This document shows, one piece after another, positions 14,598-63,994 of a stretch of 64,000 nucleotides of DNA (positions within the stretch are counted from its first letter, which is position 1; the number at the start of each line of letters is the position of its first letter). The position numbers and the translations under genes are program-made. Source of the stretch: Bacteroidota bacterium (GTDB taxonomy: Bacteria > Bacteroidota > Bacteroidia > B-17B0 > Aurantibacillaceae); contig JAHEYF010000008.1 of NCBI GenBank assembly GCA_023251755.1, positions 34,315 to 98,314 of the forward strand. Reading direction: 5' to 3'. Under the pieces are notes generated by a model that saw only the letters and a program-made list of their open reading frames with translations, ran no database searches and had not been told where the DNA came from.

Positions 14598-14700
14598 AGT
14601 TCTTTCGTTCAAAAGCTCTTTCGTTTAATCGTTTTACGTGAAGATGATCCCGAACGAATAAACGAAAGAACAAGTAAACTAATAAACGGGTAAACAAATG
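14598..14700. repeat. Intergenic word repeat, family A, copy 1
   Basis: A hairpin-forming element made of TTCGTTT and AAACGAA words. Perfect 11-bp arms lie at 14599-14609 and 14661-14671 (GTTCTTTCGTT and complement). The core 14631-14665 matches 17553-17587 at 34 of 35 positions. It fills the gap between two genes read leftward. Confidence 0.8.
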
Positions 14701-14738
14701 TATGACAAAATATTAAAGTTCAAAAGCGCTGGTTTTTG

Positions 14739-17420
14739 TTAATTCATCAACTGAAAAGTATAACAAATAACCTTGTTCCCCGAAACAGAAAGCAAATAAC
14801 TTTGTGCGTCGTTGTTGATGTTTGATAAAACCGGCTCACAGGTAGCGTTATAGGAAGCCGTTTCAATCTCTTTCCCATCTGTCCCGATTATTTTGCACAA
14901 GCCGTTTTCTTTTAGCACCACCATAAAATAAGCCTGTTTATCGAAGTTCATAACTTTTAATAAAGGCATTAGTTCCTGTTTGCTGTTGTACGACAATAAA
15001 ATTTTCCCGGCATCGTCGTGTATTTCAAATCCGTTTTCATCCAGCAATACATAGTCGTTCAACTGGTCGTCGTTGACGAGGGCAATTTTTACCTGTTTTG
15101 TTTTCAGCTCGCTTTCAAAAGAGATGTTTTGCAGTTCATCGCTTAAGGAAAGTTTGACCATGTTTTTATTCCCCGCATCAATACAATGAATATAACTTTT
15201 ACCAATGTCTTTTCCCGGATCGGGGTACCAGGCATTGATACCGGCCGGTAGCCTGTGTTTAAAACTTAAGCGGGCTTCTCCCCTTCTGCCTGTTCCATAT
15301 ACGTTTCCGGCTGAATCGGCCACCAGGAGGTAATCTTTTTGATTGATCCTCAGCCATTCAACCGGTAAGCTTACCTTGGCCTGCGTAGGCGGGAAAACAA
15401 AACCCTCCACTTCTTTTCCGAAAATATTATAATCGTAAATCTTTTTATCCTCGCAGGCCAAGAGGATGCGGTAGTCTTTGTTCAACTCATAATCGAAAAC
15501 TGAAATTCCGTTGGTAGCCCTTGATTTTAGTCCAACAGGATAACCCTGCACATAGTTTCCATTCCGGTCAATTAAGTGTATGGCTGTTTCTGTATTGAAC
15601 AACAGCTGTAATTTTTCGTTTTTAAAATAATCCACCTGCACCACTTTGCCCATAATTGAGCCTTCAATTTTTTTGCTCCAAATTATTTTTCCGGTATTGC
15701 TGATGAGGTAAATTTTACCCGCAGCATCCTGTATAAAAACTTCTTTCCCGCCTGTTTTGTGGTTCGTTACCACCTGCGGCTGCATCACTGTTAAAGTATC
15801 CAATTGGGTTTCCCAAACGCTGTTGTTTTGTTTGTTTTCGGCGGGGCTATACAATACATAAGCCTGATCTAATAATTTACCTTTATAAGAAGTGATTTGA
15901 TAAGCGAGGGCATTAAATTTTTCGAACAACTGATTGTAGCGGTTAAACAAGTCTTTGATGTCCTGATTAAAAAAAGAGCTCAGGAAGTTTTGGGAACCTG
16001 AAAACGAAGTATAGAGGTAAAAATTTGTTTCATTGCCCAAATGATTGTCTGCAAAATGAACAAACTGTTCGTTGCGGGCCAGGGTTTGGTTTTGACTGAG
16101 GCAGGCCTTGTAGCGCTGAAGTTTGCTACAACTTTCGGCAAATAAAATATAATCGTTGATTACAGTACAATACCTGGGCTGAAAAGAGTACAAATGAAAG
16201 GAGAACACATTGAATACAGCAGCATCATTAAATACACAAACAGAGTCGCCGGGCAAAAGCCCGATGATACTATCGGCTACCTGGTGCAAAAAATTAAGCG
16301 CTTTATCCCTGTCGTTTATTTTTGCGAGTGCGTAATCAGCTGTTGTATCGTGGTCGTTGGTGTGCAGTAAAATAATTTCTTCGCCGGCTATTTGCTGTAT
16401 ACTGTTTATTAAATCAATGTCTAATTTTTTATCGTATTTGTTTTTTTCTTCAGCTGTTTCTGTAGTAAAGAAAATATCCCCTGCAAATTTTTCCCTGTCG
16501 CTTATTCCCAGAAAAACAAATGAAGACGTTGTGGCCGGTGCGATGCTTGTGAATTCTATTTCGCAGGGCTCCTGTTTGCCCAATGCCTTCAATAATACCG
16601 ACGAATCACAAAGGGTATAACCGTTCATCATCAGTTCATTCGGTGTAAAATCAACATCTAATTCCGTCCAGCCTTTTGCATTGCGGATACTCATGATCCC
16701 CTCCTGAGGAATAGCCTTGTCAAAATATTCTGCGTGTTGTTGGTTGAACTGGTGATTGACAAAAAACCTGAAATCGGCATCCGTTCCCGCACTTTCTTCC
16801 AGCTTTGAAAAATAAGCGTCGTTGGCCAGTACATTTTTATTTTTCTGTTCAACAGTGTTTTTCAATAGCTCCTGGTTCGCTGAAATGGCAAGCATGCCGG
16901 AATTACTATAAAAATATACCGGTTGTAATGACTGCTTAAAATAAACGGTGGTGATTTTTTCTCCTTCGGCCGCATCGCTTGTTTCGTATTTCTGTGCATT
17001 TGATTTCAGGTAATTGTTTACTTCTTCGGTGTAATTAATATCGGGCAGGTTTAAAACAAAAAGAAAATCAGTGTGTGTGTCTTTACCGGGATAGGCAGCA
17101 ATGTAAACTTTGTTGTTGTCAAAAATTGCTTTTATCCGTTCGTTGCTATTGATAATGGAATCAACAAGTCCATAGTGCTGGTTCAGTTCTTTAACCCCGG
17201 TAATTTGCTGCAGTTCTTCCCAGATCAAATTGGTTTCATTCAGTTTTTTAAAGAGTTTCAAAAAATCATCCGACTCGATAACAAAGCTGCATCCCTGGGG
17301 GATGGCCTGAGTAGCGAGTATTTTCGGTTTTTTAAGATTTTTTATATAGAGATAGCCATAGGTTCCGGCTACAAGTGTCGAAACAATCAGCAACACAAAT
17401 AAAATCTTTTTTAGCATCAT
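14739..17420 (-). CDS. Membrane-anchored protein with a beta-propeller-like C-terminal half, function unknown
   Basis: I do not recognise a named family. The 893-residue product has one N-terminal membrane segment (about residues 5-25), so most of it should lie in the periplasm. The first ~500 residues loosely resemble DUF3352-type proteins (GCSFVIESDD opening, TDFLFVLNLP, repeated self-similar halves). Residues ~555-800 contain repeated blade-like units of a PQQ/WD-type propeller: GKIYLISNTGKIIWSK, AIHLIDRNGNYVQGYP, KKIYDYNIFGKEV. Such blades often bind other proteins. It sits between word repeats on both sides and is on the same strand as the OmpA-family gene and rnhB. The start could be either of two adjacent Met codons. 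Confidence 0.8.
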   Translation of the reverse strand: MMLKKILFVLLIVSTLVAGTYGYLYIKNLKKPKILATQAIPQGCSFVIESDDFLKLFKKLNETNLIWEELQQITGVKELNQHYGLVDSIINSNERIKAIFDNNKVYIAAYPGKDTHTDFLFVLNLPDINYTEEVNNYLKSNAQKYETSDAAEGEKITTVYFKQSLQPVYFYSNSGMLAISANQELLKNTVEQKNKNVLANDAYFSKLEESAGTDADFRFFVNHQFNQQHAEYFDKAIPQEGIMSIRNAKGWTELDVDFTPNELMMNGYTLCDSSVLLKALGKQEPCEIEFTSIAPATTSSFVFLGISDREKFAGDIFFTTETAEEKNKYDKKLDIDLINSIQQIAGEEIILLHTNDHDTTADYALAKINDRDKALNFLHQVADSIIGLLPGDSVCVFNDAAVFNVFSFHLYSFQPRYCTVINDYILFAESCSKLQRYKACLSQNQTLARNEQFVHFADNHLGNETNFYLYTSFSGSQNFLSSFFNQDIKDLFNRYNQLFEKFNALAYQITSYKGKLLDQAYVLYSPAENKQNNSVWETQLDTLTVMQPQVVTNHKTGGKEVFIQDAAGKIYLISNTGKIIWSKKIEGSIMGKVVQVDYFKNEKLQLLFNTETAIHLIDRNGNYVQGYPVGLKSRATNGISVFDYELNKDYRILLACEDKKIYDYNIFGKEVEGFVFPPTQAKVSLPVEWLRINQKDYLLVADSAGNVYGTGRRGEARLSFKHRLPAGINAWYPDPGKDIGKSYIHCIDAGNKNMVKLSLSDELQNISFESELKTKQVKIALVNDDQLNDYVLLDENGFEIHDDAGKILLSYNSKQELMPLLKVMNFDKQAYFMVVLKENGLCKIIGTDGKEIETASYNATCEPVLSNINNDAQSYLLSVSGNKVICYTFQLMN

Positions 17421-17503
17421 ACAGGCTTATGCTAAATTAAGGTATGTGAAGACCCGGAATGTTAATGCAGAGGATAGTATTAAACACTTGTATGTGGATA
17501 AGT

Positions 17504-17610
17504 AGTTCTTTCGTTTACAAGTTTATTCGTTCAAAAGTTCTTTCGTTTAATAGTTTTACGTGAAGGTGATCCCGAACGAATAAACGAGTGAACGAATAAA
17601 CTATTAAACG
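17504..17610. repeat. Intergenic word repeat, family A, copy 2
   Basis: Same family as 14598-14700. Nested inverted repeats are perfect: 17521-17532 pairs with 17574-17585 and also with 17590-17601, and 17544-17553 pairs with 17601-17610 (CGTTTAATAG). The core 17553-17587 is shared with copy 1. It runs up to the stop codon of rnhB at 17614. Confidence 0.8.
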
Positions 17611-17613
17611 CTG

Positions 17614-18219
17614 TTACTCTCCGAAATTGAGTTGAAGCTGGGAAGGCAACAAGGTGAAGGTCATGCGGTGGTATTTGCAGGGGCCGTGGGTTGTAATCCC
17701 TTTCCGGTGTTCAAGGGTGGGATAGCCTTTGTTTTTATTCCAGGCATAATGAGGGAGCTCGGTATGTAATTTCTCCATGATATCGTCCCGGTATGTTTTG
17801 GCCAATACCGAAGCTGCGGCAATGTTTAAAAAACGGGCATCCCCTTTTACCATACACTGGTGTTGAATTCCTTTGTAGGGATTAAAGCGGTTGCCGTCAA
17901 TTAATAAAAATTCCGGTTTTAGCTGCAAGCCGTCAACAGCTCTGTGCATAGCCAAAAATGAGGCGTTCAGGATATTTATTTCATCTATCTCGGTGTGACT
18001 TACCTCTGCCCAGGCCCAGGCTAAGGCTTCCTGCTGAATTTGTTCCCTTAAACGATACCGCTGCTTTTCACTTAATTTTTTTGAATCGTTGAGCTCATTG
18101 TTTTTATAATCAGGGGGCAATATCACCGCAGCTGCTACCACCGGGCCGGCTAAGCAACCTCTACCGGCTTCGTCGCAACCGGCTTCGGTTAAGTGTTTAT
18201 TAAAACAGGTTTTTAACAT
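17614..18219 (-). CDS. rnhB: Ribonuclease HII
   Basis: The 201-residue product removes RNA from RNA-DNA hybrids, including single ribonucleotides in DNA. The four metal-binding acidic residues of type 2 RNase H are visible: Asp16 and Glu17 in AGCDEAGRGCLAGPV, an Asp in LLIDGN, and an Asp in AKTYRDD. The start at the ATG ending at 18219 was chosen because the 30-residue in-frame extension upstream lies inside an inverted repeat and is not family-like. Length fits the family. It is cytoplasmic and divergent from the Rel gene. Confidence 0.95.
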   Translation of the reverse strand: MLKTCFNKHLTEAGCDEAGRGCLAGPVVAAAVILPPDYKNNELNDSKKLSEKQRYRLREQIQQEALAWAWAEVSHTEIDEINILNASFLAMHRAVDGLQLKPEFLLIDGNRFNPYKGIQHQCMVKGDARFLNIAAASVLAKTYRDDIMEKLHTELPHYAWNKNKGYPTLEHRKGITTHGPCKYHRMTFTLLPSQLQLNFGE

Positions 18220-18227
18220 TATGAAAT

Positions 18228-18345
18228 AAGTAAAAAGCCAAAAGGGTGATCTCGTTTCTGATACAATCTTCTGCTTAGTATAAGCATCTGAGGCGGAAGA
18301 TTTAGTCATAACCGGAATCGTTTTTTGGCTTTTGGCTTTTTACTT
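18228..18345. repeat. Inverted repeat between rnhB and rel (TTGGC word family J)
   Basis: Arms 18228-18244 and 18329-18345 are perfect 17-bp reverse complements built on GCCAAAAG/CTTTTGGC words, 84 bp apart. The right side carries further TTTTGGCTTTT words and an AATCG lead-in as seen at 54051, 54119, 58473 and 62344. It lies between divergent genes and starts 8 bp ahead of the rnhB start codon. Confidence 0.75.
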
Positions 18346-18467
18346 TTGGCTTAATTGACTTTCATCGTTTTTTTAATCGTTCTCAAAGATATTTATTTCC
18401 AGGCAATTGTATAATCAAATAGTTTCAGCTAATTTTAAACTTTTACCACATTTTCCCCAATTTCCTT

Positions 18468-20687: not shown

Positions 20688-20696
20688 ATATTTAGT

Positions 20697-20781
20697 TTAT
20701 TTGTTCACTTGTTCTTTAGTTCATTCGTTCGGAATCACCTTAGTCTGTAACTATTAAACGTTTGAACGATTAAACAATTGA
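20697..20781. repeat. Intergenic word repeat, family A, copy 3 (inverted)
   Basis: An inverted copy of the family A core: 20719-20742 read on the minus strand resembles 17562-17585 (AAGGTGAT-x-CCGAACGAAT). CTATTAAACG at 20751-20760 equals the right arm of copy 2. It fills the gap between the convergent rel and paaD genes. Confidence 0.7.
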
Positions 20782-20783
20782 AC

Positions 20784-21278: not shown

Positions 21279-21303
21279 TTGTAGAGGGTTGTTTTTTTAA
21301 GAG

Positions 21304-21541
21304 AATAATTAACTTATATGATCTTATGTGCCTTATATGATTCAAAAACCTCTTTAAACCATATAAGGCACATAAGGCATATAAGATTTTACTTTCGCTT
21401 TATTCAACATTTAACTTATGTGAACTTATATGCCTTATGTGGTTCAAAAAAAATTAAACTCTATAAGGCACAAAAGATTTTACTTTAGCTTTATTCGACA
21501 TTTAACTTATGTGAACTTATATGCCTTATGTGGTTCAAAAA
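21304..21541. repeat. Direct and inverted repeats, CTTATGTGCCTTATATG word family B
   Basis: Two 68-bp direct copies, 21383-21450 and 21474-21541, agree at 66 of 68 positions. Both contain AACTTATATGCCTTATGTGG. Ahead of them, 21311-21340 and 21359-21386 carry the same words in opposite orientation (CTTATGTGCCTTATATG against ATATAAGGCACATAAG), so a hairpin can form. The block lies inside the paa cluster, upstream of paaD. Confidence 0.85.
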
Positions 21542-21555
21542 CACCTTACCGACAT

Positions 21556-21663
21556 TTATAAAATAAAAATAGCAGCAATGATCATAATGACAATGATAAC
21601 GATGTATTGCCAGACATCAACAAAATAAGGAGAGTATTTTTTCCAGGATTCTTTAAGTCCCAT
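21556..21663 (-). CDS. Small 35-residue single-membrane-segment protein within the paa cluster
   Basis: A short gene that usual length cut-offs would miss. It reads ATG to TAA, starts 18 bp after the paaC stop on the same strand, and encodes a charged/aromatic head (MGLKESWKKYSPYFVDVW) followed by a purely hydrophobic run of Ile, Val, Met and Ala to the end. This is the composition of a real single-pass membrane peptide rather than random AT-rich sequence. I know no named family. Its place between paaC and paaD suggests co-transcription. Its role is unknown; it could also be an unrelated inserted membrane peptide. Confidence 0.55.
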   Translation of the reverse strand: MGLKESWKKYSPYFVDVWQYIVIIVIMIIAAIFIL

Positions 21664-21681
21664 AAAAAGTATGTTTAAATT

Positions 21682-22440: not shown

Positions 22441-22445
22441 GTTTA

Positions 22446-22590
22446 AAGTTTAGAGTCTATAGTTGAGAGTCCAGAGTTTGTAGTTGACTGTTTAGAGTTT
22501 AGAGTCTATAGTTGAGTGTTTGTCGTGTAGAGTGTAAAGAGTCAACATTAGGTCTGTCTCTCTCAACTCTAAACTATAGACTCTCAACTA
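22446..22590. repeat. Direct and inverted repeats, AGAGTCTATAGTT word family C
   Basis: AGTTTAGAGTCTATAGTTGAG occurs at 22447-22467 and 22496-22516. The complementary words (CTCAACTCTAAACTATAGAC) stand at 22562-22581, so the gap can fold on itself. The right edge includes the stop codon of paaB (22588-22590). The block separates paaB from paaC. Confidence 0.75.
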
Positions 22591-22884
22591 AATATGTTTA
22601 ACCCCCTCCGGTATCTGGTAAAAAGTTGGATGTCTGTATACCTTATCATTGGCCGGTTCAAAAAACGGCCCTATGTCTTCAGGTGAACTCGACACGATGG
22701 CCGATGAAAGAACGACCCATATTGCGGTTCCTTCGCCACGGCGGGTGTATAAATCGCGGGCATTTTGCAAAGCCATTTCTTTGTCAAAAGCATGCAGACT
22801 TCCGCAATGTACAAATGGCTGACCTGATTTTCTCTGTAAAAAAACTTCCCAAATGGGCCCTTGTGTATCTTTAGTATTGCTCAT
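22588..22884 (-). CDS. paaB: Phenylacetyl-CoA epoxidase subunit PaaB
   Basis: The 98-residue product matches the small PaaB subunit: WEVFLQRKSGQPFVHCGSLHA, the DLYTRRGEGTAIWVV segment, and a C-terminal Y-x-HPTFYQIP. PaaB bridges PaaAC heterodimers and is needed for activity. The ATG ending at 22884 was chosen because the upstream in-frame extension overlaps the 3' end of paaA and is not family-like. It starts 25 bp after paaA. Its stop codon lies in a word repeat. Confidence 0.94.
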   Translation of the reverse strand: MSNTKDTQGPIWEVFLQRKSGQPFVHCGSLHAFDKEMALQNARDLYTRRGEGTAIWVVLSSAIVSSSPEDIGPFFEPANDKVYRHPTFYQIPEGVKHI

Positions 22885-38012: not shown

Positions 38013-38178
38013 TTGAGTATTGAGATGTTAGATATTAGTATTGAGAGTTGGGGTATTTAGCCTATAAACTTTATCTATTGGAGTGATAGTAAACTAATAA
38101 GCAAATCGTATCGATGAGCCAATCTCAAATCTATGTACTCAATACTAACATCTCAATACTCAAATCTATGTACTCAAT
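38013..38178. repeat. Inverted repeat of GAGTATTGAGATGTTAG words (family I)
   Basis: Perfect 19-bp arms lie at 38013-38031 and 38145-38163. CTCAATACT and CAAATCTATGTACTCAATACT are repeated on the right side up to 7 bp before the permease ATG, so the permease leader is made of this repeat. Related words occur at 62193-62230. Confidence 0.85.
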
Positions 38179-38184
38179 ACTGAT

Positions 38185-39432
38185 ATGATATTCCTTACCC
38201 TTCTTAAAGAAAGTTTATTTTTTGCCTGGCATGCATTGATGAACAATAAACTCAGGACATTCCTGTCTTTATTGGGTATTACCATCGGTATTTTTGCCAT
38301 CATTACGGTGTTTACCATTGTGGATAGCCTTGAAAACAATATACGCGGGAGTGTGGCATCGCTGGGGGACAATGTGGTGTATGTTCAAAAAATGCCCTGG
38401 ATTTTTGATGACGATGTTCAGTGGTGGAAAATTATCAACCGGCCATCACCGGTGCTGAAAGAATTAGAGGCCATTAAATTATTGTCACAAAAATCAGCTT
38501 ACGCCACGTTTCATGTAAATGTAAACAAAACGATAAAACAGGGCAACAATTCCATTCAAAACGCTACCATTAGTGGTGTTTCGACTGATTATGAAAAAGT
38601 AACTTCTTTTGAAATTGAGAAGGGAAGGTATTTTTCAGACATAGAATCGGCAACAGGAAAAAATGTAGTTGTTATAGGTGATAAAATTGCTGAAGCCTTG
38701 TTTCAAAAAGTGCAAAGCCCGATAGGCCAACATATAACTATTGCAGGGAGGAAAATAGAAGTAATAGGTGTTGTAAAAAAACAAGGGGAAAGTATAATGG
38801 GGAACAGCATGGATTCGCAGGTACTCCTTCCTTTAAATTTTATAAGAAATTTTACTGATTTAAGGAGCGAAAGTTCTTACCCTTTTATTGTTGTTAAGGC
38901 CAGACCGGGTATAAGCAATGAGGAATTGAAAGATGAACTGACCAGCATTATGCGTGCTGCAAGAAGAATAAAACCCATAGGTGAAGATAATTTTGCACTG
39001 AACGAAATAAAATTACTTTCAGCCGCTTTTGATGAGATGTTTGGGGTGATTGGCCTTGCAGGCTGGATCATCGGAGGCTTCTCGATACTGGTAGGTGGTT
39101 TTGGTATTGCCAACATTATGTTTGTTTCGGTAAGGGAAAGGACCAATTTAATCGGTATTCAAAAATCGCTGGGGGCAAAAAATTATTTTATCCTGTTGCA
39201 ATTTTTAATTGAATCCATTCTTCTTTCTTTGTTAGGCGGCATTATAGGTTTGCTCATTATCTTTGTGGTTACGCTATTGGCGGGTGATGCTTTCGGGATG
39301 GCCATTACGCTTTCGCGCTCCAATATTATTTTAGGATTAACGATCTCTTTTTTAATCGGAATTGTTTCAGGGTTTATTCCCGCTTATGGCGCTTCGCAAA
39401 TGGACCCGGTGGATGCTATACGGAGTAATTAG
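38185..39432 (+). CDS. MacB-like ABC transporter permease
   Basis: The 415-residue product starts with a membrane segment (LRTFLSLLGITIGIFAIITVFTIV, residues ~24-47), followed by a large periplasmic MacB-type domain and three C-terminal FtsX-like membrane segments (~285-310, 330-355, 370-400), ending in GASQMDPVDAIRSN, typical of the family. Such permeases couple a cytoplasmic ATPase to lipoprotein release or efflux by mechanical force. No ATPase gene is adjacent, so its partner is elsewhere. The substrate cannot be told. Confidence 0.92.
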   Translation: MIFLTLLKESLFFAWHALMNNKLRTFLSLLGITIGIFAIITVFTIVDSLENNIRGSVASLGDNVVYVQKMPWIFDDDVQWWKIINRPSPVLKELEAIKLLSQKSAYATFHVNVNKTIKQGNNSIQNATISGVSTDYEKVTSFEIEKGRYFSDIESATGKNVVVIGDKIAEALFQKVQSPIGQHITIAGRKIEVIGVVKKQGESIMGNSMDSQVLLPLNFIRNFTDLRSESSYPFIVVKARPGISNEELKDELTSIMRAARRIKPIGEDNFALNEIKLLSAAFDEMFGVIGLAGWIIGGFSILVGGFGIANIMFVSVRERTNLIGIQKSLGAKNYFILLQFLIESILLSLLGGIIGLLIIFVVTLLAGDAFGMAITLSRSNIILGLTISFLIGIVSGFIPAYGASQMDPVDAIRSN

Positions 39433-39541
39433 CAGATTGATTTGAAGATGTGTTGATTTGAGAATTTGAAGATGTGGGCTCATGTGATGATTAGCTGATC
39501 CAATAACATATAAACGAATAAACCAGCAAACGAATAAACAG
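39433..39541. repeat. Word repeats (families E and A)
   Basis: TGATGATTAGCTGAT at 39485-39499 is identical to 55624-55638 and 55680-55694; GATTTGAAGATGTGTTGATTTGAG is of the same type. AAACGAATAAAC words of family A follow (39513-39540) and run to 5 bp before the next start codon. Confidence 0.7.
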
Positions 39542-39898: not shown

Positions 39899-39902
39899 GC
39901 CG

Positions 39903-40024
39903 TATTTTGTATGCTGTATATTGTATCCAGTCTGGGTGCAAAACACGGTGTATAATATCAATTACAACAACACACAGACTTGATACAACATACAAGGTAT
40001 ATTGTACATTGATCTGTACACAAG
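39903..40024. repeat. Word repeats of GTATATTGTA type (family H)
   Basis: Words such as TTGTATCCAGTCTG and, inverted, CAGACTTGATACAA form an imperfect hairpin in this convergent gap. ACAACATACAAGGTA-like words recur at 63089-63140. Confidence 0.6.
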
Positions 40025-43291: not shown

Positions 43292-43672
43292 TTACAATAT
43301 CCACCGGGCAATTTTATCAATGAGTAAATTTAAATCAAGGGGTTTCGAAACGTAATCCCATGCGCCGGCCTCCAGGCATTTTTCTTTGTCTCCTTTCATT
43401 GCTTTTGCAGTTACAGCAACAACAGGTATTTGTTTTAAAACCTTGTCCTGCTTTAAGGCCTCAAGGGTTTCAAACCCATCCATCACGGGCATCATCATGT
43501 CCAATAATATGATATCGGCCTTTGTTCTGTTTCGTAAAAGGGCCAGGGCTTCTTCCCCGTTTTTTGCGATTTCAGTTTTCATTTCAAAGGTTTCAAGGTA
43601 GCTCCTGAGTGCAAATATATTTCTGTCGTCGTCGTCAACAATTAATGCCGTTTTACTTTTTAATCTTTCCAT
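43292..43672 (-). CDS. Single-domain response regulator
   Basis: The 126-residue product is a lone receiver: acidic cluster DDDD at residues 13-16, phospho-acceptor Asp58 (LLDMMMPVMDG), Thr in VTAKAMKGD and Lys in VSKPLD. It closely resembles the third receiver of the large kinase upstream (AKAMKGD-x-EKCLEAG in both), suggesting duplication from it. It lacks an output domain and may pass phosphate on or inhibit. The ATG ending at 43672 was chosen; a longer frame runs into a purine-rich tract. Confidence 0.9.
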   Translation of the reverse strand: MERLKSKTALIVDDDDRNIFALRSYLETFEMKTEIAKNGEEALALLRNRTKADIILLDMMMPVMDGFETLEALKQDKVLKQIPVVAVTAKAMKGDKEKCLEAGAWDYVSKPLDLNLLIDKIARWIL

Positions 43673-43801
43673 ACGTAGGTAATTATTTATTGTTCTATAA
43701 ACCTGCCACTCCTCCGGAGTCGGCACCTGCTCCCGCAAAAGGATATTTCTCCTTTCCCCTCTCCTTCCCACTCCCACTCTCTTCTCTCACATCTCACTAC
43801 T

Positions 43802-46800
43802 CTACCTATACAACCAAACCCTCATCAGCGATAACAATTGCTCAATGTTTACAGGCTTTGCAACATAATCCGACATTCCCGCCTCCAGGCATTTTTCCCG
43901 GTCGCCTTTCATTGCTTTTGCAGTTAAGGCAATAATGGGAAGTTTTTCGAATTTACCAATGCTTCTGATTTCTTTGGTGGCTTCATAACCATCCATTTCC
44001 GGCATCATCACATCCATTAATATAATTTCTACCGAAGGGTTTTCTTTTAACAGTTTAATGGCTGCTTTCCCATTTTCGGCGATGATGCAATTCATTCCTT
44101 CTTCTTCCAGTACATTGGTAAGCGAATAAATATTACGTATATCATCGTCCACCACCAATACTTTTTTATTTTTAAGTACTTCGTCTGTTTTATGAAGTCT
44201 GCGGATGATGTTTTGTTTTTCTTTTGGTAAGCGCGATTCCACCCGGTGTAAAAAAAGCATGGTTTCATCCAGGAGGCGTTCCTGCGAATCGGCTGTTTTC
44301 AGTACAACGGTATTGGCGAATTTCATCAGGCGGGAATTTTCATCTTTAGATAAATCTTTACCGGTGTAAACTATAATAGGGATTTTGATTAATTTATCGT
44401 TTCCTTTTATTTTTTCCAATAAATCAAAACCGGTCATATCGGGCAATCCCAGGTCAACAATGACACAATCAAAATTTCCCTTGTCCATTAAATCGTAAGC
44501 TTCACGACCCGAATAAGCAGAAAAACTTTTTACATCTCCGTTTCCAATCAATTCGCGGATGGCTTTGTTTTGTGCCTCATTGTCTTCAACAACGAGGAGT
44601 TTTTTTAATTTTTTACTTACAAAGTCTTCAATCTTATCGAAGGTGTTTTGTAAATCATCTTTACTAATAGGTTTGCGGATAAAATCAAAGGCGCCCAATT
44701 CAAGTCCTTCTTTTCTTCTGTCGTATCCCGAAATAATCTGAACAGGAATATGCCGCAGGTCGGGGTCGTTCTTTAAATGCCTTAGTACATCGGCTCCGTC
44801 CATCACAGGCAATTTCATATCCAATATAATTGCGTCGGGTTTGTGGTGTCTGGCGTAACTCAGGCCGGTATTGCCCTGTGCGGCGATAATCCCTTTGTAA
44901 TTCCGTTCCCTTACAAAGTCGAGCATGATTTTAGAAAATTCAGGATCATCTTCCATAATCAAAATAATCTTATCGTTATCTGCAATATTATAACGATCGT
45001 CGTTTACTTCGTTGCCTTCCGCAACAGCGTATTTTTCGCGCCTGGCTTGTTTTGTGGTCGTTTCAGTTTTTGTGTCTTTTATTGCTATTTTTTGTTCGAG
45101 GGCAGCGGGCATCATCGAAGCGTCAAAATTCAAAGGAAGGTACAGGGTAAAGGTGCTTCCTTTTCCTTCCGCACTTTGCAGATGAATTTCCCCGCCCAGG
45201 GCATTGGCCAGTTCGCGGCTGATAGAAAGTCCAAGGCCGGTACCGCCGTATTTTCTTTTGGTAGAGCCATCTGCCTGTTGAAATGCTTCAAACACAAGCC
45301 CCTGCTTTTCGGGTGAAATACCGATCCCGTTGTCTGTAACGGCAAAGGCTACAATAGCAGGTGCTGTTCCCAATTTTTTGTTTTTGAAAACAACATTGGT
45401 TTTAAGGGGTTCAACAGCAAAAGAAACTGCTCCGTTTTTACCGGTAAATTTAAAGGCATTGGACAATAAGTTCCGGAGAATCTGAATAAGCCTTTGTTTA
45501 TCGGTGGTGATGGATTTTAAATCATTCTCCTTGTAACGAATCGTAAAATCAATGGCTTTACTTTTGGCCAGTTCCGAGAACATGGAATGAATATCGGTAT
45601 TGATTTCTGGAATGGGCACAGCTGTTATGTCCAATTCCATTTTACCCGATTCAACTTTTGAGAGGTCGAGTATTTCATTGATCAGGTTGAGTAAATCAGT
45701 TCCTGAATTGTAAATGTTTTTCGAAAACTCCACTTCTTTATCGCCGATGGATTTGTTTTTATTTTCGGAAAGCAATTGCGAAAGGATAAGGATGCTGTTG
45801 AGCGGTGTGCGCAATTCGTGCGACATGTTGGCCAAAAATTCGGACTTGTACTTGCTGGTGATTTCAAGTTCGCGGGCCTTGGTTTCAATGTCCATCTTGG
45901 CAGACTCCAATTTGTCTTTTTGTTCTTCGAGCAGGTTGGCTTTTTCTTCCAGCTCTTCGTTGGTTTGCTGCAATTCTTCCTGTTGGGCTTTTAGCTCCGA
46001 TTCTGATTTTTCGAGCAAGCCGGTTTTCTCCTGTAGTTCTTCGTTCGATTGTTTGAGTTCTTCCTGCTGCGCTTCTAATTCTTCGGCTTGTCGTTGCGTT
46101 TCTTCCAGCAGTTCTTTTAATTTGGTGCGCGATTGTGCTGCATTAATTACGATCGCAATATTTTCGCCCACCATGTTCAGGAACTGCATATCCAAATCTG
46201 AGAAGCCTTTGGAAGTCCCTATTTCCATCACCCCTTTCAATATCCCGTCCTGTAACAAAGGAATAAGTATAATGTGTTTGGGGGCTGTGTTTCCAAGTCC
46301 CGAATTAATTTTAATATAGTCATCGGGTACTTCGGTAAATACAATTGTTTTTTTCTCTAATGCTGCCTGCCCTACTAAGCCTTCACCCATTTTTATAGCA
46401 TTGGTATTTTGTTTGCGAAAATGGAAAGCATAAGTACCGGCCAGGTTCAGGTAATTGTTCTCTGCTAAATACATCACACCAATCTGAGCATTTAAATAGG
46501 TGCACAACTGACTGATTACTGCCTGTGCCAGGTCTTCCACACTTTTTTCTCCGCGTATGGTTTCATTCAGTTCAAAATTACCGGCCAGTATCCAGTTTTT
46601 ATTGGCGCTTTCCTGTTCGGCTTTTTTAAGTGCTCGTAAATTGGAGGTGATGATGAGGTAAACACTAATCAGTACAATGGAAATAATTAACAAAAGAATA
46701 ATAAAAATGGTATTAAAGCTACGGGCATCCTCTTCGCTTGCGCGCTGCCGGTCACTAAGGAGCTTCTCTTCAATACCCTTGCAATTCGATATCGTTTTTC

Positions 46801-53809: not shown

Positions 53810-54194
53810 TTTACAAATTTCCTCATATTACAAACGACTATAACACGCATTTAGTATAGGATTTAAACAATGTTGGTTTGATAAGTAACTGATTTCACTT
53901 ATTTTAACAAGTGACTATACGGTAATTTTGCATTACTGCTATTTTAAGCTTATGATGAGGCGCGGAGCATGCAAAGTAATCATTCTTTTAATTTTTAACT
54001 TAACAAAGGAAAAGCCATAAGCAATAAAAAATAAGCCATAAGGGGTTTTACATAAACGAAATCGTTTTTGGCTTTTAACTTTTGACTTAACAACCATCTA
54101 TGTATAACACAGAGAATTTAATCGCAACCGTGATCACACTTTTGGCTCCTGGCTTTTAACTTTTGACTTATAAATTTTAACTTAACAACCACAC
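53810..54194. other. Gap between the AsmA-like gene and the UPF0316 gene
   Basis: This 385-bp divergent gap has no gene. Its right half is word repeat J. TAATTTTG at 53923-53930 fits the -7 box on the plus strand but lies 265 bp before the next start, so its use is doubtful. Confidence 0.5.
54051..54183. repeat. TTTTGGCTTTTAACTTTTGACTTA repeats (family J)
   Basis: Two direct copies of the word block (near 54056-54088 and 54141-54171) stand in this leader. The stretch 54119-54183 matches 62344-62408 at 62 of 65 positions, including the palindrome GTGATCAC. The block ends 11 bp before the ATG at 54195. Confidence 0.85.
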
Positions 54195-55610: not shown

Positions 55611-55612
55611 AG

Positions 55613-55819
55613 ATTAGCTGATGTGATGATTAGCTGATTAGCTGATGGGGAAACAGGTAAATGAAAACCTTATAGGTGTTGATGATTAGCTGATTGATTT
55701 GAGAATGAATTGATTTGAAGATTTGATGATGCACCTATGAACAATTTAGCTACCGTCTTTGAATCTTGAATTTTAAATTTTGAACCACCACTAAGAACTA
55801 AGAACTTTGAACTATAGAC
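55613..55819. repeat. Word repeats between paaG and paaH (families E and F)
   Basis: TGATGATTAGCTGAT occurs at 55624-55638 and 55680-55694. AACTAAGAACTTTGAACTA at 55796-55814 is found exactly at 63962-63980 and 63976-63994, and with one change at 57910-57928. The block runs to within a few bases of the paaH start codon. Confidence 0.8.
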
Positions 55820-55820
55820 T

Positions 55821-57705: not shown

Positions 57706-57733
57706 CTCTATATACCTAAAACATTGTTGAAAA

Positions 57734-57758: not shown

Positions 57759-57820
57759 ATTCGTCTTACTGCTTGTTTTTTTGCAGAGAACTGTTTATCT
57801 TTCGATATACGATCAACAGA

Positions 57821-57899
57821 TACAAATTTTGTACGAATATACTAATGATGTAATATACAGCGATCACACGCAGATTAGTATATTCGTACAAAATTTGTA
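57821..57899. repeat. Perfect 26-bp inverted repeat (family D)
   Basis: The arms 57821-57846 and 57874-57899 are exact reverse complements with a 27-base spacer. Key words are TACGAATATACTAAT and ATTAGTATATTCGTA. The same words recur at 60190-60352. It lies in the leader of the second lipoprotein gene. Confidence 0.9.
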
Positions 57900-57937
57900 A
57901 TTAGTAGACAACTAAGAACTCTGAACTAAAGACAATT

Positions 57938-58468: not shown

Positions 58469-58472
58469 TATT

Positions 58473-58522
58473 AAGTTAGAAGTCAAAAGTTAAAAGCCAG
58501 GAGCCAAAAAGCGATTTCGGTT
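58473..58522 (-). repeat. TTTTGGCTCCTGGCTTTTAAC block, inverted copy of family J
   Basis: Read on the minus strand, this stretch repeats the words at 54141-54171 and 62361-62393, including GGCTCCTGGCTTTTAACTTT. It starts 5 bp after the stop of the second lipoprotein gene. Confidence 0.75.
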
Positions 58523-58626
58523 AAAATTAAACTCCTGGTGTCTTTGCGAGTAATAAGTTAAAAGAGTAATGCCGAACATTAAAAATTCTTCAAAAACAAA
58601 AATTCAAGGCTATAAAAATTTCTAAG

Positions 58627-58650
58627 GGCGGGATTTCCTGCCTTTTTTAT
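58627..58650 (+). terminator. Rho-independent-type terminator
   Basis: GGCGGG (58627-58632) pairs with CCTGCC (58637-58642), including one G-U pair, around ATTT; six Ts follow. It would end transcription from the lipoprotein genes before the HTTM gene. Confidence 0.5.
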
Positions 58651-58666
58651 TTTATTACATTCCCTG

Positions 58667-60160: not shown

Positions 60161-60179
60161 TTCTTAATTATCTACTAAT

Positions 60180-60402
60180 TACGAATCTTGTACGAATATA
60201 CCAATCTGTGTGTAGCGTTACTGTATAGTTACATCATACCCGTATTATTTGCGGGCTCATTATCCCAACATTAGTATATTCGTATAAAATTCGTATTCAT
60301 AACTTCAACTAACTCGTTATTCCAACATTAGTATATTCGTACAAGATTCGTATTCGTAGATCCGTCAATCGTAATTCGTAATTCGTAATTCGTAATTCGT
60401 AA
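60180..60402. repeat. Inverted repeat, direct copies and 7-bp tandem repeat (families D/G)
   Basis: Perfect 21-bp arms lie at 60180-60200 and 60332-60352. AACATTAGTATATTCGTA is repeated at 60268-60285 and 60325-60342. GTAATTC is repeated four times in tandem at 60371-60398. The words overlap with those at 57821 and, inverted, at 24760. The block ends about 12 bp before the paaI start. Confidence 0.85.
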
Positions 60403-60413
60403 CTTGTAAACCT

Positions 60414-60827
60414 ATGACCGATAAAGCAAACCGTATAGTACAAAAAATGTTTGACCAGGACTGGTTCAGCCAGTGGCTCGGCATTACACTTGTTGAAGTA
60501 AAAGAAAGCAGCTGTACTTTAAAAATGAAAGTGCGCAAAGAAATGCTCAATGGTTTTGGTATTGCCCACGGCGGGATCACCTATTCCTTTGCCGACAGTG
60601 CACTGGCCTTTGCTTCCAATTCCCACGGCAGAAAAAGTGTTTCGGTGGAGACTTCCATCTCCCATACCGAATCCCTGCTCGAAGGGGATGAACTCACCGC
60701 TGTTGCCGAAGAGCTCAGCCTCTCCAATAAAATAGCCGTGTACCAGATTAAAATCTTTAACCAGCACAACAAAATTGTGGCTCTGTTTAAAGGCACCGTT
60801 TACCGCACAAGTAAAGAATGGGAATAA
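60414..60827 (+). CDS. paaI: Hotdog-fold phenylacetate-pathway thioesterase PaaI
   Basis: The 137-residue product is a hotdog thioesterase with GFGIAHGGITYSFADSALAFA and Asp61, the catalytic aspartate of PaaI. It hydrolyses ring-hydroxylated phenylacetyl-CoA and is thought to rescue CoA from dead-end products. The length and context fit. Confidence 0.92.
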   Translation: MTDKANRIVQKMFDQDWFSQWLGITLVEVKESSCTLKMKVRKEMLNGFGIAHGGITYSFADSALAFASNSHGRKSVSVETSISHTESLLEGDELTAVAEELSLSNKIAVYQIKIFNQHNKIVALFKGTVYRTSKEWE

Positions 60828-60832
60828 GAAAG

Positions 60833-60950
60833 TTTAATTGTTTAATCGTTCTTGTGTTTATGACACTCCCGCAGATACTACTTTGAAAGTGTGTCTGGAA
60901 CCGCTTCAACTGATCAACAAATAAACGAATAAACTGGTAAACGAAATTCG
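60833..60950. repeat. AAACGAATAAAC words (family A-like) ahead of the thiolase gene
   Basis: GTTTAATTGTTTAATCGTTC on the left and AATAAACGAATAAAC on the right repeat the arm words of family A around an unrelated centre. Confidence 0.6.
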
Positions 60951-60958
60951 TATCTTTG
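60951..60958 (+). promoter_or_regulatory. -7 promoter box ahead of the thiolase gene
   Basis: TATCTTTG fits TAnnTTTG and lies 28 bp before the ATG at 60987, giving a leader of about 20 bases. No TTTG is seen 20 bp upstream. Confidence 0.5.
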
Positions 60959-60986
60959 TAGCCATCTTATTAAACAGAACCGCACA

Positions 60987-62192
60987 ATGAAACAAGCCTA
61001 TATAATTGATGGTGTCCGCACACCGATTGGAAGTTTTGGGGGTACTTTGTCCTCCATTCGTACCGATGATTTAGCCGCCCTGGTATTAAAAAAATTAATA
61101 GAGCGCAATCCACAAATCAACCCTTCCGAAATTGGTGATGTAATAATGGGTTGTGCCAACCAAAGTGGTGAAGACAACCGCAATGTAGCCCGCATGGCCC
61201 TCTTGCTGGCCGGCCTCCCCCACTCAGTTCCCGGCGAAACAGTGAACAGGTTGTGTGCTTCCGGCTTATCCGCATCCATGGCTGCTGCCCGTTACATTAT
61301 AAACAACGAAGCCGAATTAATGATTGCAGGTGGCGTTGAAAACATGACCCGTGGCCCCTGGGTGATTTCAAAAACTTCTACCCCCTTTGGCCGCGATGCA
61401 CAAATGTTCGATAGCAGCTTCGGCTGGCGTTTTATCAACCCAAAATTGAAAGAGCTATATGGTGTGGACGGAATGGGCGAAACAGCAGAAAACCTGAACG
61501 ATATTCATAAAATAAGCCGCGAAGACCAGGATCAATTCTCCTTGTGGAGCCAGCAAAAAGCTGCAAAAGCAATTCAAAATAAACGTTTTGAAAAAGAAAT
61601 TACCGCTGTTGAAATTCCACAAAAAAAAGGAGACCCGAAAATTTTCGATACAGATGAATTTGTAAAACCGGATTCCACCATGGATATATTGACCAAATTA
61701 AAACCGGCCTTTAGAAAAGACGGAACCGTAACCGCCGGCAATGCTTCCGGTTTAAACGATGGAGCTGCTGCTTTATTATTGGCCTCAGAAGAAGCCATTA
61801 AAAAATACAACCTGAAACCCCGCGCACGTATAGTGGCTGCCGGAGTGGCCGGAGTAGAGCCACGCATTATGGGCATAGGCCCGGTGGAAGCCAGTAAAAA
61901 AGCCCTTAAAAATGCGGGGCTTACCATCGACCAGATAGACATTATTGAATTGAACGAAGCCTTTGCCGTACAGGCCCTTTCCTGCATACGCTCCTGGGGC
62001 CTTGCAGACAACGACCCACGTATCAACCCCAACGGGGGCGCTATTGCATTAGGGCATCCATTGGGAATGAGTGGTGCAAGAATATTGAACACAGCAGCCA
62101 TCGAATTGCATGAACGGAATAAACGTTATGCTTTAGTTACCATGTGTATCGGTGTGGGGCAGGGTTATGCAGTAATTATTGAAAGAGTTTGA
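60987..62192 (+). CDS. Thiolase, probable 3-oxoadipyl-CoA thiolase (PaaJ/PcaF type)
   Basis: The 401-residue product has the thiolase acyl-accepting Cys90 (NRLCASGLSA), GGVENMTRGPW, the His motif NPNGGAIALGHPLGMSGAR and the C-terminal Cys region TMCIGVGQGYAV. Length equals that of PcaF/PaaJ thiolases, which cleave 3-oxoadipyl-CoA to succinyl-CoA and acetyl-CoA. Placement between paaI and paaY supports that substrate, though acetyl-CoA acetyltransferase cannot be excluded by motifs alone. No symbol is given because PaaJ is used for two proteins in the field. Confidence 0.88.
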   Translation: MKQAYIIDGVRTPIGSFGGTLSSIRTDDLAALVLKKLIERNPQINPSEIGDVIMGCANQSGEDNRNVARMALLLAGLPHSVPGETVNRLCASGLSASMAAARYIINNEAELMIAGGVENMTRGPWVISKTSTPFGRDAQMFDSSFGWRFINPKLKELYGVDGMGETAENLNDIHKISREDQDQFSLWSQQKAAKAIQNKRFEKEITAVEIPQKKGDPKIFDTDEFVKPDSTMDILTKLKPAFRKDGTVTAGNASGLNDGAAALLLASEEAIKKYNLKPRARIVAAGVAGVEPRIMGIGPVEASKKALKNAGLTIDQIDIIELNEAFAVQALSCIRSWGLADNDPRINPNGGAIALGHPLGMSGARILNTAAIELHERNKRYALVTMCIGVGQGYAVIIERV

Positions 62193-62408
62193 TGAGATGT
62201 GAGATGTTAGTATTGAGATGTGAGATAGCAGACCCTTAACTTTGCAACTAATCTCTTCTTACTTTCTCACATTCTCACTTTGGGCTTTTGACTTATTTCT
62301 CGCAGAGAAGCGCTGATTAAAACGCGAAGTTCCGCAGAGGATGTAATCGTAACCGTGATCACACTTTTGGCTCTTGGCTTTTAACTTTTGACTTATAATT
62401 TTTAACTT
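62193..62408. repeat. GAGATGTGAGATGTTAGTATTGAG words and the family J leader
   Basis: 62193-62230 repeats the words of the inverted repeat at 38013-38178 and has complementary CTCACATTCTCAC at 62265-62277. 62344-62408 is the second copy of the 65-bp leader found at 54119-54183, with the GTGATCAC palindrome, ending 6 bp before the paaY ATG. Confidence 0.8.
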
Positions 62409-62414
62409 GTTCCC

Positions 62415-62999
62415 ATGATTTATTCCTTTAACGGCTACATTCCAGTAATACACGAAAGTGCTTTTGTACATCCACAGGCCTGTGTTACCGGCAATGTAAT
62501 TATCGGTAAAAATGTTTACATAGGCCCCGGTGCTGCTGTTCGTGGCGACTGGGGGGAAATCATCATCGAAGACGGCTGCAATGTACAGGAAAACTGTACC
62601 ATTCACATGTTTCCCGGAACCACTGTTTTATTAAAAGAAGGCGCTCACATAGGGCACGGTGCTATTATTCACGGTGCAACCATCGGTAGAAATGTATTAA
62701 TAGGCATGAACGCTGTAATAATGGACCATGTAGTAATCGGCGACAATTGCGTTATCGGATCATTAGCCTTTGTACCTACTGAGATGATTATCCCCGAACG
62801 AAAAGTAGTGGTAGGCAACCCGGCTAAAATAATTAAAGAGGTGAGCGATGAAATGATAGCCTGGAAAACCAAAGGCACACAGCTTTATCAGCAATTGCCG
62901 GCCGATTGTTACGCCGGCTTAAAAGCCTGCGAACCTTTGCGCGAAATACCCAAAGACAGGCCCAGACAACAGGAGCTGTATAAAACGTGGAAACATTGA
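62415..62999 (+). CDS. paaY: Hexapeptide-repeat (gamma-carbonic-anhydrase-like) protein PaaY
   Basis: The 194-residue product is a left-handed beta-helix of hexapeptide repeats with His residues in metal-binding positions (ENCTIHMFPG, GAHIGHGAIIHGATIG). PaaY is a thioesterase-like helper that clears inhibitory CoA adducts formed in the phenylacetate pathway; other members are carbonic anhydrase-like. The paa neighbours favour PaaY. It has an unusual 5' leader shared with the UPF0316 gene. Confidence 0.85.
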   Translation: MIYSFNGYIPVIHESAFVHPQACVTGNVIIGKNVYIGPGAAVRGDWGEIIIEDGCNVQENCTIHMFPGTTVLLKEGAHIGHGAIIHGATIGRNVLIGMNAVIMDHVVIGDNCVIGSLAFVPTEMIIPERKVVVGNPAKIIKEVSDEMIAWKTKGTQLYQQLPADCYAGLKACEPLREIPKDRPRQQELYKTWKH

Positions 63000-63140
63000 T
63001 TTGAAGATGAGTTGAATTGAAGATTTGAGAATGGGAGAATGATTAGCTGATGAATGGGATGCTGAGCGAAGCCGAAGCATGATTTGAAAATGTGTATACA
63101 ACACACAAACTGAATACAAGGTACAATGTACAACATACAA
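63000..63140. repeat. GATTTGAAGATGAGTTGA and GTACAACATACAA words (families E and H)
   Basis: ATGATTAGCTGAT recurs here (63040-63052) as at 39487, 55626 and 55682. ATACAAGGTACAATGTACAACATACAA at 63113-63139 recalls 39990-40010. The gap separates paaY from kdsB. Confidence 0.65.
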
Positions 63141-63178
63141 ATCCCATACCTTCTTCATAAAATAAAAAACTGTAAACT

Positions 63179-63919
63179 ATGATTTTAGGAGTTATACCCG
63201 CACGCTACGCTTCATCCCGCTTTCCGGGCAAACCACTCATTGACATTCAGGGAAAAACCATGATACAAAGAGTGTACGAACAAGCCAGTGCTTCCGAAAA
63301 ACTAAGTAAAGTTGTTGTAGCCACCGACGATCAACGAATATTCGATCACGTTGTTTCATTTGGAGGAGAAGCCATAATGACTAAGGAAGATCATCCCAGT
63401 GGTACCGACCGCTGTTATGAAGCCCTTCAAAAAACCGGAACTCACTACAACTATGTTATCAATATACAGGGCGATGAACCCTTTATTGACCCTTCGCAAA
63501 TTAATTTGTTGGCAGACTTGTTAAACGATGAAACAGTAGAATTAGCTACTTTAATGATTCCCGTCGATTCGCATGAAGTACTGTTTGATGCAGGCGAAGT
63601 AAAAATTGTGCTGAACGAAAACAACGAAGCCCTGTATTTCAGCCGCATGGTGATTCCTTATATAAAAGGCATTGATCAAAAAGACTGGCATAAACATTTT
63701 AATTATTACCGTCATGTTGGTATGTATGCCTACCGCAACGATGTATTAAAAAAAATAACCGGGCTCCCACCCTCTTCTTTGGAAAAAGCAGAATCATTAG
63801 AACAATTGCGCTGGCTCGAAAACGGCTTAAAAATTAAATGTGCCCTTACCCAACACGACAGCCATTGCATTGATACCCCCGAAGATGTAGAGAAAGTGTT
63901 GAGGCGATTGACGAAGTAG
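63179..63919 (+). CDS. kdsB: 3-deoxy-manno-octulosonate cytidylyltransferase KdsB
   Basis: The 246-residue product activates Kdo as CMP-Kdo for the lipopolysaccharide core. Motifs: VIPARYASSRFPGKPL, HPSGTDRCYEAL, NIQGDEPFIDP and HVGMYAYRNDVL. The length is normal. It ends LRRLTK, and the last codons with the stop are themselves one of the GATTGACGAAGTA repeat words, so the repeat touches coding sequence here. Confidence 0.96.
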   Translation: MILGVIPARYASSRFPGKPLIDIQGKTMIQRVYEQASASEKLSKVVVATDDQRIFDHVVSFGGEAIMTKEDHPSGTDRCYEALQKTGTHYNYVINIQGDEPFIDPSQINLLADLLNDETVELATLMIPVDSHEVLFDAGEVKIVLNENNEALYFSRMVIPYIKGIDQKDWHKHFNYYRHVGMYAYRNDVLKKITGLPPSSLEKAESLEQLRWLENGLKIKCALTQHDSHCIDTPEDVEKVLRRLTK

Positions 63920-63994
63920 GATTGACGAGGTATGATTGACGAAGTACGAACAGCCACTATGAACTAAGAACTTTGAACTAAGAACTTTGAACTA
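63908..63994. repeat. GATTGACGAGGTA and AACTAAGAACTTTGAACTA repeats (families G and F)
   Basis: The words GATTGACGAAG/GAGG occur three times between 63906 and 63950, starting inside the kdsB 3' end. AACTAAGAACTTTGAACTA occurs twice, overlapping, at 63962-63980 and 63976-63994. Confidence 0.75.

Follow-up and report, generated by a model that had tools for sequence, protein, structure and literature searches.

What do the short repeated words that fill many gaps between the genes of a Bacteroidota bacterium have in common, and what could have put them there? The question is raised by a stretch of 64,000 nucleotides (GenBank assembly GCA_023251755.1, contig JAHEYF010000008.1, positions 34,315 to 98,314; hereafter the window), in which an earlier note, made from the letters alone, had described several families of such words in at least fifteen gaps, arranged as hairpins, and had attributed this shared architecture to one process. 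The feature that the arrays share is an outward polarity and not a hairpin. Each word family can be read in two orientations, here called G-type and C-type (in family A, GTTY and RAAC, respectively), and at the edges of genes, starts as well as stops, the words read outward are mostly G-type, so that two arms within one gap meet head to head.

The source genome is a 4.64 Mb draft (4,640,944 bases) in 217 contigs, 93% complete, from the same class as Flavobacterium. The main sample comprises 1,121,704 of the 4,640,944 bases, with 589 intergenic gaps, and a smaller first sample of 464 kb consists of the window and 20 further stretches. Genes were defined as open reading frames (ORFs) of 100 aa or more, chosen by length, under which definition small genes may count as gap. 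The contigs were mostly taken from a list of family A matches, which biases the frequency of family A upward and should leave polarity and placement unbiased.

Degenerate tandem words with a period of 7 or 8 nt occur in 237 of the 589 gaps at the looser threshold, against 7, 14 and 9 in three shuffles. At a stricter threshold, 163 arrays were found in 115 kb of gaps and 6 in the interiors of 843 ORFs (1.01 Mb, with 60 nt excluded at each ORF end). The first 464 kb contain 47 period-7 and 37 period-8 arrays, where a shuffle yields 0.6 and 0.0; in coding DNA (413 kb) there are 4 and 1, respectively. Five-base repeats likewise exceed shuffles about five-fold (1179 vs 215 at period 7, 972 vs 217 at period 8), and intergenic self-match rises above dinucleotide shuffles at lags 7 (+0.030) and 8 (+0.025) and also at 14, 16, 21 and 24, none of which gives a peak in coding DNA. 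One family A 13-mer has 101 copies genome-wide and its backwards control has none. In the window from 14583 to 64000, for which a hand-picked ORF list gives 27 gaps longer than 40 nt from 14583 onward, arms of eight of the ten counted families lie in 18 gaps, two of which (35113 and 47453) hold one short match each that may be due to chance, and differently spelled word gaps exist besides. The words are thus neither confined to the window nor a matter of background k-mer frequency, since shuffles yield almost no arrays, and their description as intergenic, of several families and present in at least fifteen gaps is confirmed. Their occurrence in both orientations, their contact with starts and stops, their functionally unrelated neighbours and the existence of one common design are supported as well. 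Gene interiors are indeed avoided, but the further statement that the words do not pass start or stop codons has to be relaxed, as they run slightly into gene ends: of 153 genes with an arm at the stop, 41 have a word of the same family within their final 24 nt, whereas a control position lying 300 nt deeper in the gene gives 15.

Ten word families (A-J) were used in the polarity counts. Arms were located with regular expressions composed after the gaps had been read, the longest being kept where arms overlapped, and the orientation label was set for each family post hoc, so that the polarity counts measure constancy within a family. Family K (AAATTTAGAATTT words, 16 gaps) was excluded from later counts, its label being doubtful, with the supposed G-type arms nearer starts. 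The consensus of a unit was read from the middle unit between two cores, which is therefore not selected upon. In the 245 middle units of family A the bases AAC are each kept at 98%, preceded by A (56%) or G (42%) and followed by T (72%) or A (22%), and the three spacer bases are variable, with C almost never present. Families E, F, I and J (14-39 cases) also place several near-fixed bases next to variable ones; families B, C, G and H are thin (8-24 unit cases) and family D (60 cases) is less clean. The five-base cores TAACT/AGTTA at period 7 were found 13 times, against 1.0 in shuffles.

Among arms lying at most 15 nt from a gene edge and read outward, 163 of 172 at stops and 65 of 77 at starts are G-type. 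Family A displays G:C ratios of 86:4 at stops and 34:3 at starts, and families F, G, I and D ratios of 15:0, 15:0, 10:0 and 11:3 at stops; little weight rests on B, E and J, which have 3, 5 and 1 arms there. Because each of the ten families favours one orientation at stops, one process or constraint behind the different families is indicated, as the earlier note had proposed. When orientation is judged by composition only, within 20 nt of the edge, the arms read outward are G-type in 53 of 69 cases at stops (53:16) and in 52 of 59 at starts (52:7); the arm order is then 20:2, with arrays of near-equal G and C omitted, or 51:11 at a looser threshold.

The order of the arms within a gap follows the same pattern. 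In family A the G-type arm precedes the C-type arm in all 70 close opposite pairs, in 72 of 72 under a second chain rule and in 83 of 85 with a looser expression. Neighbouring arms of different families keep the head-to-head order in a ratio of 51:4, and some meet within a few bases (e.g. window 63920-63993). Divided by gap class, G-then-C and C-then-G orders (GC:CG) stand at 77:5 in codirectional, 21:3 in convergent and 12:2 in divergent gaps for pairs of the same family, and at 39:1, 4:1 and 4:2 for pairs of different families. A single switch point is seen in 181 of 195 gaps with at least two arms, where a random-orientation null gives 129.5 with a maximum of 151. Single arms in codirectional gaps are symmetric: 35 are G-type in the gene sense, of which 24 lie closer to the stop, and 34 are C-type, of which 24 lie closer to the start. 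Since the polarity appears at starts and stops and in all gap classes, it is a property of the gap and not of the sense strand of the gene. A general G/C skew of gaps is ruled out as its explanation for codirectional gaps, where the skew switch amounts to 0.215 +- 0.024 with arrays vs 0.022 +- 0.032 without, and for convergent gaps, where it is -0.059 +- 0.077 without arrays. The formation of G-quadruplexes (G4) as a cause was rejected, only 2 of 592 arms being able to form one.

An RNA hairpin as the common design, which the earlier note had ascribed to all families, is not borne out. Among arm pairs separated by under 60 nt and spanning no more than 250 nt, 81 of 86 pairs of the same family fold with z below -2 (mean -4.78), but only 3 of 16 pairs of different families do so (mean -0.10), although these mostly keep the same layout; for gaps without arrays the count is 23 of 94. 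The term hairpin describes the former pairs and not the latter. In addition, no covariation was detected in family A: paired units in register display a spacer identity of 0.442 vs a null of 0.469 +- 0.016 and a purine/pyrimidine match of 0.432 vs 0.499 +- 0.030, and register shifts of 1-2 units bring little improvement (at most 0.483 vs 0.461 +- 0.017). When C-type arms were swapped between family A elements the folding energy remained approximately unchanged, the own arm being better in 33 of 70. These neutral swaps, the absence of covariation and the non-folding pairs of different families together exclude the hairpin as the common design. RNAalifold found no pair in 28 Flavobacterium gaps, the alignment of which is weak in the arms, and Rfam at gathering score gave 0 matches in the window.

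Based on this polarity, we tentatively hypothesize that the arrays may have arisen as DNA synthesis repeatedly extended the 3' ends at both edges into the gap and the extended ends were joined head to head, a possibility that we favour over the alternatives weighed below without holding it to be probable. Each arm would be a tail added to a 3' end; with each strand's 3' end at the gap extended by G-type words, the joined product would read G-type and then C-type. Repeated trimming and tailing would push the arms to the selectively protected gene edge, and realignment of a polymerase on short words would set the period of 7 or 8 bases, the near-invariant bases being the stretch that realigns. 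A rule that is bound to the gap edge on both strands, and depends neither on gene direction nor, for the most part, on the word, fits such two-sided growth and joining. The two steps are conceived by analogy with telomere-type tailing and fusion. Telomere repeats are degenerate units of 6-8 nt whose G-bearing strand leads at the 3' end and which stand head to head when ends join. Unlike telomeres, the arrays lie in the interior of a bacterial chromosome, belong to many word families and are accompanied by no reverse transcriptase match.

The observations that weigh against 3'-end growth concern the enzyme, exceptions to the polarity and the pairing of families, together with the signs of copying, function and persistence that are given below with the rival explanations. 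We know of no enzyme that performs such tailing. No PF00078 (RVT_1) match was found in the genome, which is 93% complete, so that telomerase proper was rejected and a telomerase-like enzyme is unlikely. At starts the polarity is often broken in families D (9:6) and C (1:2), and the order of 17:9 in family D is the clearest exception to G-then-C. In divergent gaps single arms have no clear side preference, and the skew switch is 0.119 +- 0.042 with arrays vs 0.091 +- 0.050 without, so that for this class general skew may be the explanation. Moreover, the outermost G-then-C arms of one gap belong to the same family in 100 of 155 cases against a null of 52 (22 of 60 against 8.0 when family A is left out), a match that independent tailing of two ends does not require; across a gene, arms are of the same family in 30 of 121 cases, the null being 33. 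Pairs of different families lie wider apart, with a median of 57 nt vs 11 nt for pairs of the same family, and for this reason many of them may be the remains of separate dyads.

In a second explanation, the arrays are small mobile dyads, resembling miniature inverted-repeat transposable elements (MITE) or repetitive extragenic palindromic (REP) elements, which a transposase or recombination dispersed and which diverged afterwards. In fact, families D and G have dispersed copies with 75-96% identity over about 60-110 nt on both strands, with non-word loops in common (the alignments have 16, 13 and 18 rows, counting the query), and judged from these alignments both families also spread as whole dyad copies. 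In family A, 332 pairs have 16-mers in common, vs 242 +- 25 (maximum 286) in a unit-shuffled null, and 105 pairs have 20-mers in common, vs 58 +- 14, the 16-mer excess being a sign of some copying; a few loops also recur by eye, one GGGATCACCTT-like in four elements and GTTAGTACCC in two. Nevertheless, the sharing of 24-mers is at the null (5 pairs vs 4.8), only 2 pairs of loops have a 10-mer in common, and side-by-side dyads, which would give C-then-G junctions, are rare outside family D. We consider mobile dyads unlikely as the explanation.

The search for genes of REP-associated tyrosine transposases (RAYT) bears on the same explanation. REP elements and bacterial interspersed mosaic elements (BIME) that go with RAYT are short, palindromic as pairs, intergenic and present in many copies. 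Word dyads agree with them in these features, and a RAYT family is present: PF01797, the RAYT-like Y1 transposase, has 7 matches in the genome, six of which lie in open frames 155-165 aa long. In contrast to REP and BIME, however, family A copies seem to have scant homology beyond the words, and no word arrays were seen by eye in the 260-nt flanks of six RAYT genes, which bear compact GC-rich palindromes on at least one side. Membership of the word arrays in a RAYT-REP system is thus not supported, and the rough comparison with REP elements drawn in the earlier note is weak. The palindromes at the six genes (stretches L312-L317; e.g. CCCCGAAGGGG and GACTCCGGAGGAGTC) apparently form, with the RAYT genes, a classical REP system apart from the word arrays. 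Proteins with an RNA recognition motif (RRM) as binders of the words are no more than a lead; the genome has one RRM gene, and the main text of the RbpB paper, in its accessible part, does not contain the term 'repeats'.

A third explanation starts from the position of the arrays relative to genes. Of the 359 codirectional gaps, 163 hold arrays and 50 a family A dyad; for the 89 convergent gaps the numbers are 36 and 13, and for the 108 divergent gaps 25 and 4 (arrays in codirectional vs divergent gaps, p = 3e-5). An enrichment of codirectional over convergent gaps in the first 464 kb (69/167 vs 5/26) disappeared in the 1.12 Mb sample. In the 50 codirectional gaps the family A dyad lies at a median of 6 nt past the stop and 27 nt ahead of the next start (p = 2e-6); of 26 distances to a stop in convergent gaps, 22 do not exceed 11 nt. 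The words often supply the stop codon itself: TAG is the stop of 67 of 133 genes with an arm at most 8 nt away, vs 89 of 425 genes without (chi-square over three stops, p = 3e-10). One example is the pair of arrays at 63906..63993, where the G-type words of family I begin inside the gene end, the stop codon at 63917-63919 falling within a word.

The dyads could be bidirectional 3'-end elements: RNA leaving the gene would run into G-type words after the stop and, in dyads of one family, a loose multi-register hairpin would end transcription or protect the end of the mRNA, selection holding the layout while the words turn over. The closeness of family A to stops, its distribution over the three gap classes and the good folding of pairs of the same family suit this explanation, and so does the scarcity of sites resembling intrinsic terminators, found by a simple scan in 1 of 63 family A gaps vs 23 of 174 array-free gaps (p = 0.006). 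This scarcity may reflect function, or else a mere lack of room in a full gap. Promoter-like TANNTTTG motifs follow the dyad in 8 gaps and precede it in 2, which also agrees with a 3'-end element; overall promoter content of codirectional gaps does not differ, at 10 of 50 with family A dyads vs 23 of 88 without arrays (p = 0.53). In Xanthomonas, moreover, assembled transcripts start or stop more often at G4-forming than at control repeats, according to the accessible part of that study (Rehm et al. 2015, PMC4692102). On the other hand, single arms of the start type are as common as those of the stop type (34 and 35), and RNA read outward from a start is antisense; pairs of different families do not fold, family A displays no covariation, arm swaps are neutral, and no U-tract follows the family A arms inspected. 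The start side and the pairs of different families would thus be left unexplained, and 3'-end growth is favoured over bidirectional 3'-end elements, which we regard as a conceivable but somewhat less likely origin.

Persistence of the layout was seen in Flavobacterium. An orthologous gap was located by its preceding gene, 292 of 299 genomes being matched, and the best 30 loci were read. In these 30 nearest loci, G-type words lie in the left half of the gap in 71 of 74 cases and C-type words in the right half in 101 of 131 (raw counts); at least two G-type words stand on the left in 25 of 30 loci and at least two C-type words on the right in 28 of 30. The gap measures 85-121 nt in 28 aligned loci; the remaining two have 66 and 69 nt. 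For pairs in register, agreement at third codon positions in the preceding gene is 0.51-0.74. This dyad thus lasts while its spelling turns over, which argues for a 3'-end element; under 3'-end growth, a dyad kept for so long needs recurrent growth or selection. A similar search from the gene of a Prevotella locus gave distant matches only in the genus tried, the best with 34% identity among the matches listed, and an initial scan of named genomes at the protein level had no hits.

Beyond this gap, the strict form of family A is matched 531 times in the source genome; among the 86 other genomes of its taxonomic family, 5 have 1-19 matches. A related pattern occurs in 26 of 296 genomes of the phylum (an even draw, own genome included), one genome of the genus Flavobacterium having 95, and family D words in 18 of the 296. 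In named genomes, 80 loci were collected by a TAAAC pattern, a set biased to one word type, comprising 80 of at least 114 stretches, mostly but not only from Bacteroidota, and with several from one genome. The first match lies outside ORFs in all 80, the GC:CG order is 30:3, and outward polarity is 44:16 at stops and 47:6 at starts. In 20 stretches of other genomes the respective counts are 1:0, 4:1 and 7:3. Upstream of a Flavobacterium sugar kinase, single-arm arrays stand beside a promoter-like motif and fall outside the argument on dyads. In this one case, a comparison of two loci with orthologous kinases (L319 vs L320), the DNA differs outward from the outer end of the TAAAC array, as if the array marked a rearrangement breakpoint.

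Neutral microsatellites, in which slipped-strand synthesis with a step of 7-8 nt acts wherever selection tolerates words, would account for the two step lengths and for arrays that occupy the space up to the genes and are rarest in divergent gaps. Slippage alone gives no gap-level polarity common to unrelated words, and its plain form is disfavoured by the present ratio. Near-invariant bases beside free spacers across the sample are left unexplained, as is the peak at four units per arm: at a threshold of three units, 33 of the 70 G arms in family A have four, and so have 33 of its 70 C arms. Of the explanations considered here, we find this one the most improbable.

The earlier note had known of no described element with this design. 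In part this has to be corrected, since the placement rule is known for the GGGAATC arrays of Xanthomonas and the GGGGA(C/T)T arrays of Nostoc. According to the accessible part of that report (Rehm et al. 2015, PMC4692102), these heptamers are intergenic, favour about four units, lie nearer the 5' neighbouring ORF whatever its orientation and are rare between divergent genes; their G-rich strand is the coding strand close to or over stops and the non-coding strand close before starts. Some form inverted pairs, the words are quadruplex-capable, the rule is discussed in that light, and in two Xanthomonas most repeats are flanked by the same genes and vary in length and sequence. The present arrays agree with them in the placement rule, the preference for four units (here counted in family A), the overlap with stops and the poverty of divergent gaps. 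They differ in comprising at least ten families with periods of 7 and 8 and next to no G4 potential, in the mostly two-arm dyads of family A and in the combination of different families within one gap.

Heptamers have also been described as TAACTGA repeats, which lie between genes in Beggiatoaceae, cyanobacteria and five Bacteroidetes; most stand forward ahead of starts, and they are seen as the site of a translational regulator (MacGregor 2015, PMC4679880, in its accessible part). They consist of one exact word, with related heptamers rarely repeated, and of a single inverted pair in the main genome of that study. One reverse set directly after a stop in F. litoralis fits the rule found here, but 13 of 14 sets over the end of an upstream ORF are forward in the main genome and do not (PMC4679880, same part). 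In the literature searched, which covered few subscription journals, no description of this placement rule for words without G4 potential was found. What is new is the rule in at least ten families without quadruplex potential, with both periods and across families within one gap, together with the strict two-arm form of family A and the wide occurrence of the rule in Bacteroidota.

The arrays of the window are listed in Table 1. The dyads at 14592-14688 and 17514-17610, on both sides of the same 893-aa ORF, are 88% identical over 97 nt including the loop, above most family A pairs, and this is possibly a local duplication. A segment CAGAG..TAATCG..ACCGTGATCACAC lies ahead of D words at several loci (in the window at 54110-54183 and 62335-62408), and a CGCAGAG-type word block that recurs by eye (62300-62340 and stretch L044) is perhaps another family. 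In stretch L038 the long gap 16974-17626 holds several arrays and, by eye, a short regulator-like frame absent from the ORF list. Two coding stretches 513 nt apart at 43341-43947 of the window are 77% identical over 94 nt and are, we presume, perhaps tandem receiver domains.

Table 1. Word arrays in the window (positions count from its first nucleotide).
Position	Array	Remarks
14599..14695	family A dyad, period 8	GTTY words 14599-14638, loop, RAAC words 14648-14695
17505..17609	family A dyad, period 8	adjoins same 893-aa ORF as dyad at 14599..14695
18318..18352	family D single C-type arm, TTTTGGC words, period 7	divergent gap, RNase HII / RelA/SpoT genes
20695..20783	family A dyad	fills convergent gap, relA/spoT-like / paaD-like genes
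21279..21541	further family, CATATAAGGC/GCCTTATGTG words in repeated blocks	outside the ten counted families; word gap 21279-21681
22441..22591	further heptamer dyad, GTTTAGAGTCTATAGTTGAG then CTCAACTCTAAACTATAGAC words	outside the ten counted families; word gap 22441-22587
38017..38184	family F dyad, TGAGAT/ATCTCA words, period 7	right arm reaches start codon at 38185
39438..39539	mixed families	family G arms 39438-39504, family A C-type arm 39508-39539
39899..40020	family J words	convergent gap; called arm 39980-39995 C-type; G-type words at left end by eye
54010..54183	family D	dispersed two-arm element 54010-54083; further C-type arm 54142-54164
55612..55820	families G and E	G arms after stop 55612-55726; E C-type arm 55791-55813 beside start 55821
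57860..57937	family E C-type arm 57912-57927 and repeated TTAGTATATTCGTA block	ahead of start 57938
58485..58507	family D single G-type arm	downstream of stop
60161..60401	family I words	C-type arm 60362-60401 (GTAATTC words) ahead of start 60414
60832..60942	family A dyad, 63-nt loop	
62193..62409	families F, C, D, order G,C,C	F G-type 62193-62230; C C-type 62249-62270; D C-type 62367-62389
63000..63140	families G and J	G arms after stop; J C-type arm 63111-63140
63906..63993	family I G-type and family E C-type, almost touching	different-family pair

In a wider form, the hypothesis would state that Bacteroidota, and perhaps Xanthomonas and Nostoc, repair or remodel their gaps by word tailing of both 3' ends and joining, without a reverse transcriptase, an extension that we consider doubtful. 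If it were true, a telomere-like end-tailing would leave outward arrays and keep rewriting stop codons and gap sequence. Should the polarity reported for two quadruplex-forming heptamers hold for many unrelated words that can form neither quadruplexes nor hairpins, both structures would drop out as its cause, and one would have to look for a general process able to recognise gap edges. The recurrence of heptamer and octamer arrays in bacteria would then be explained and their origin made testable, and in such genomes the stop codons and 3' ends of genes would partly be written by repeats.

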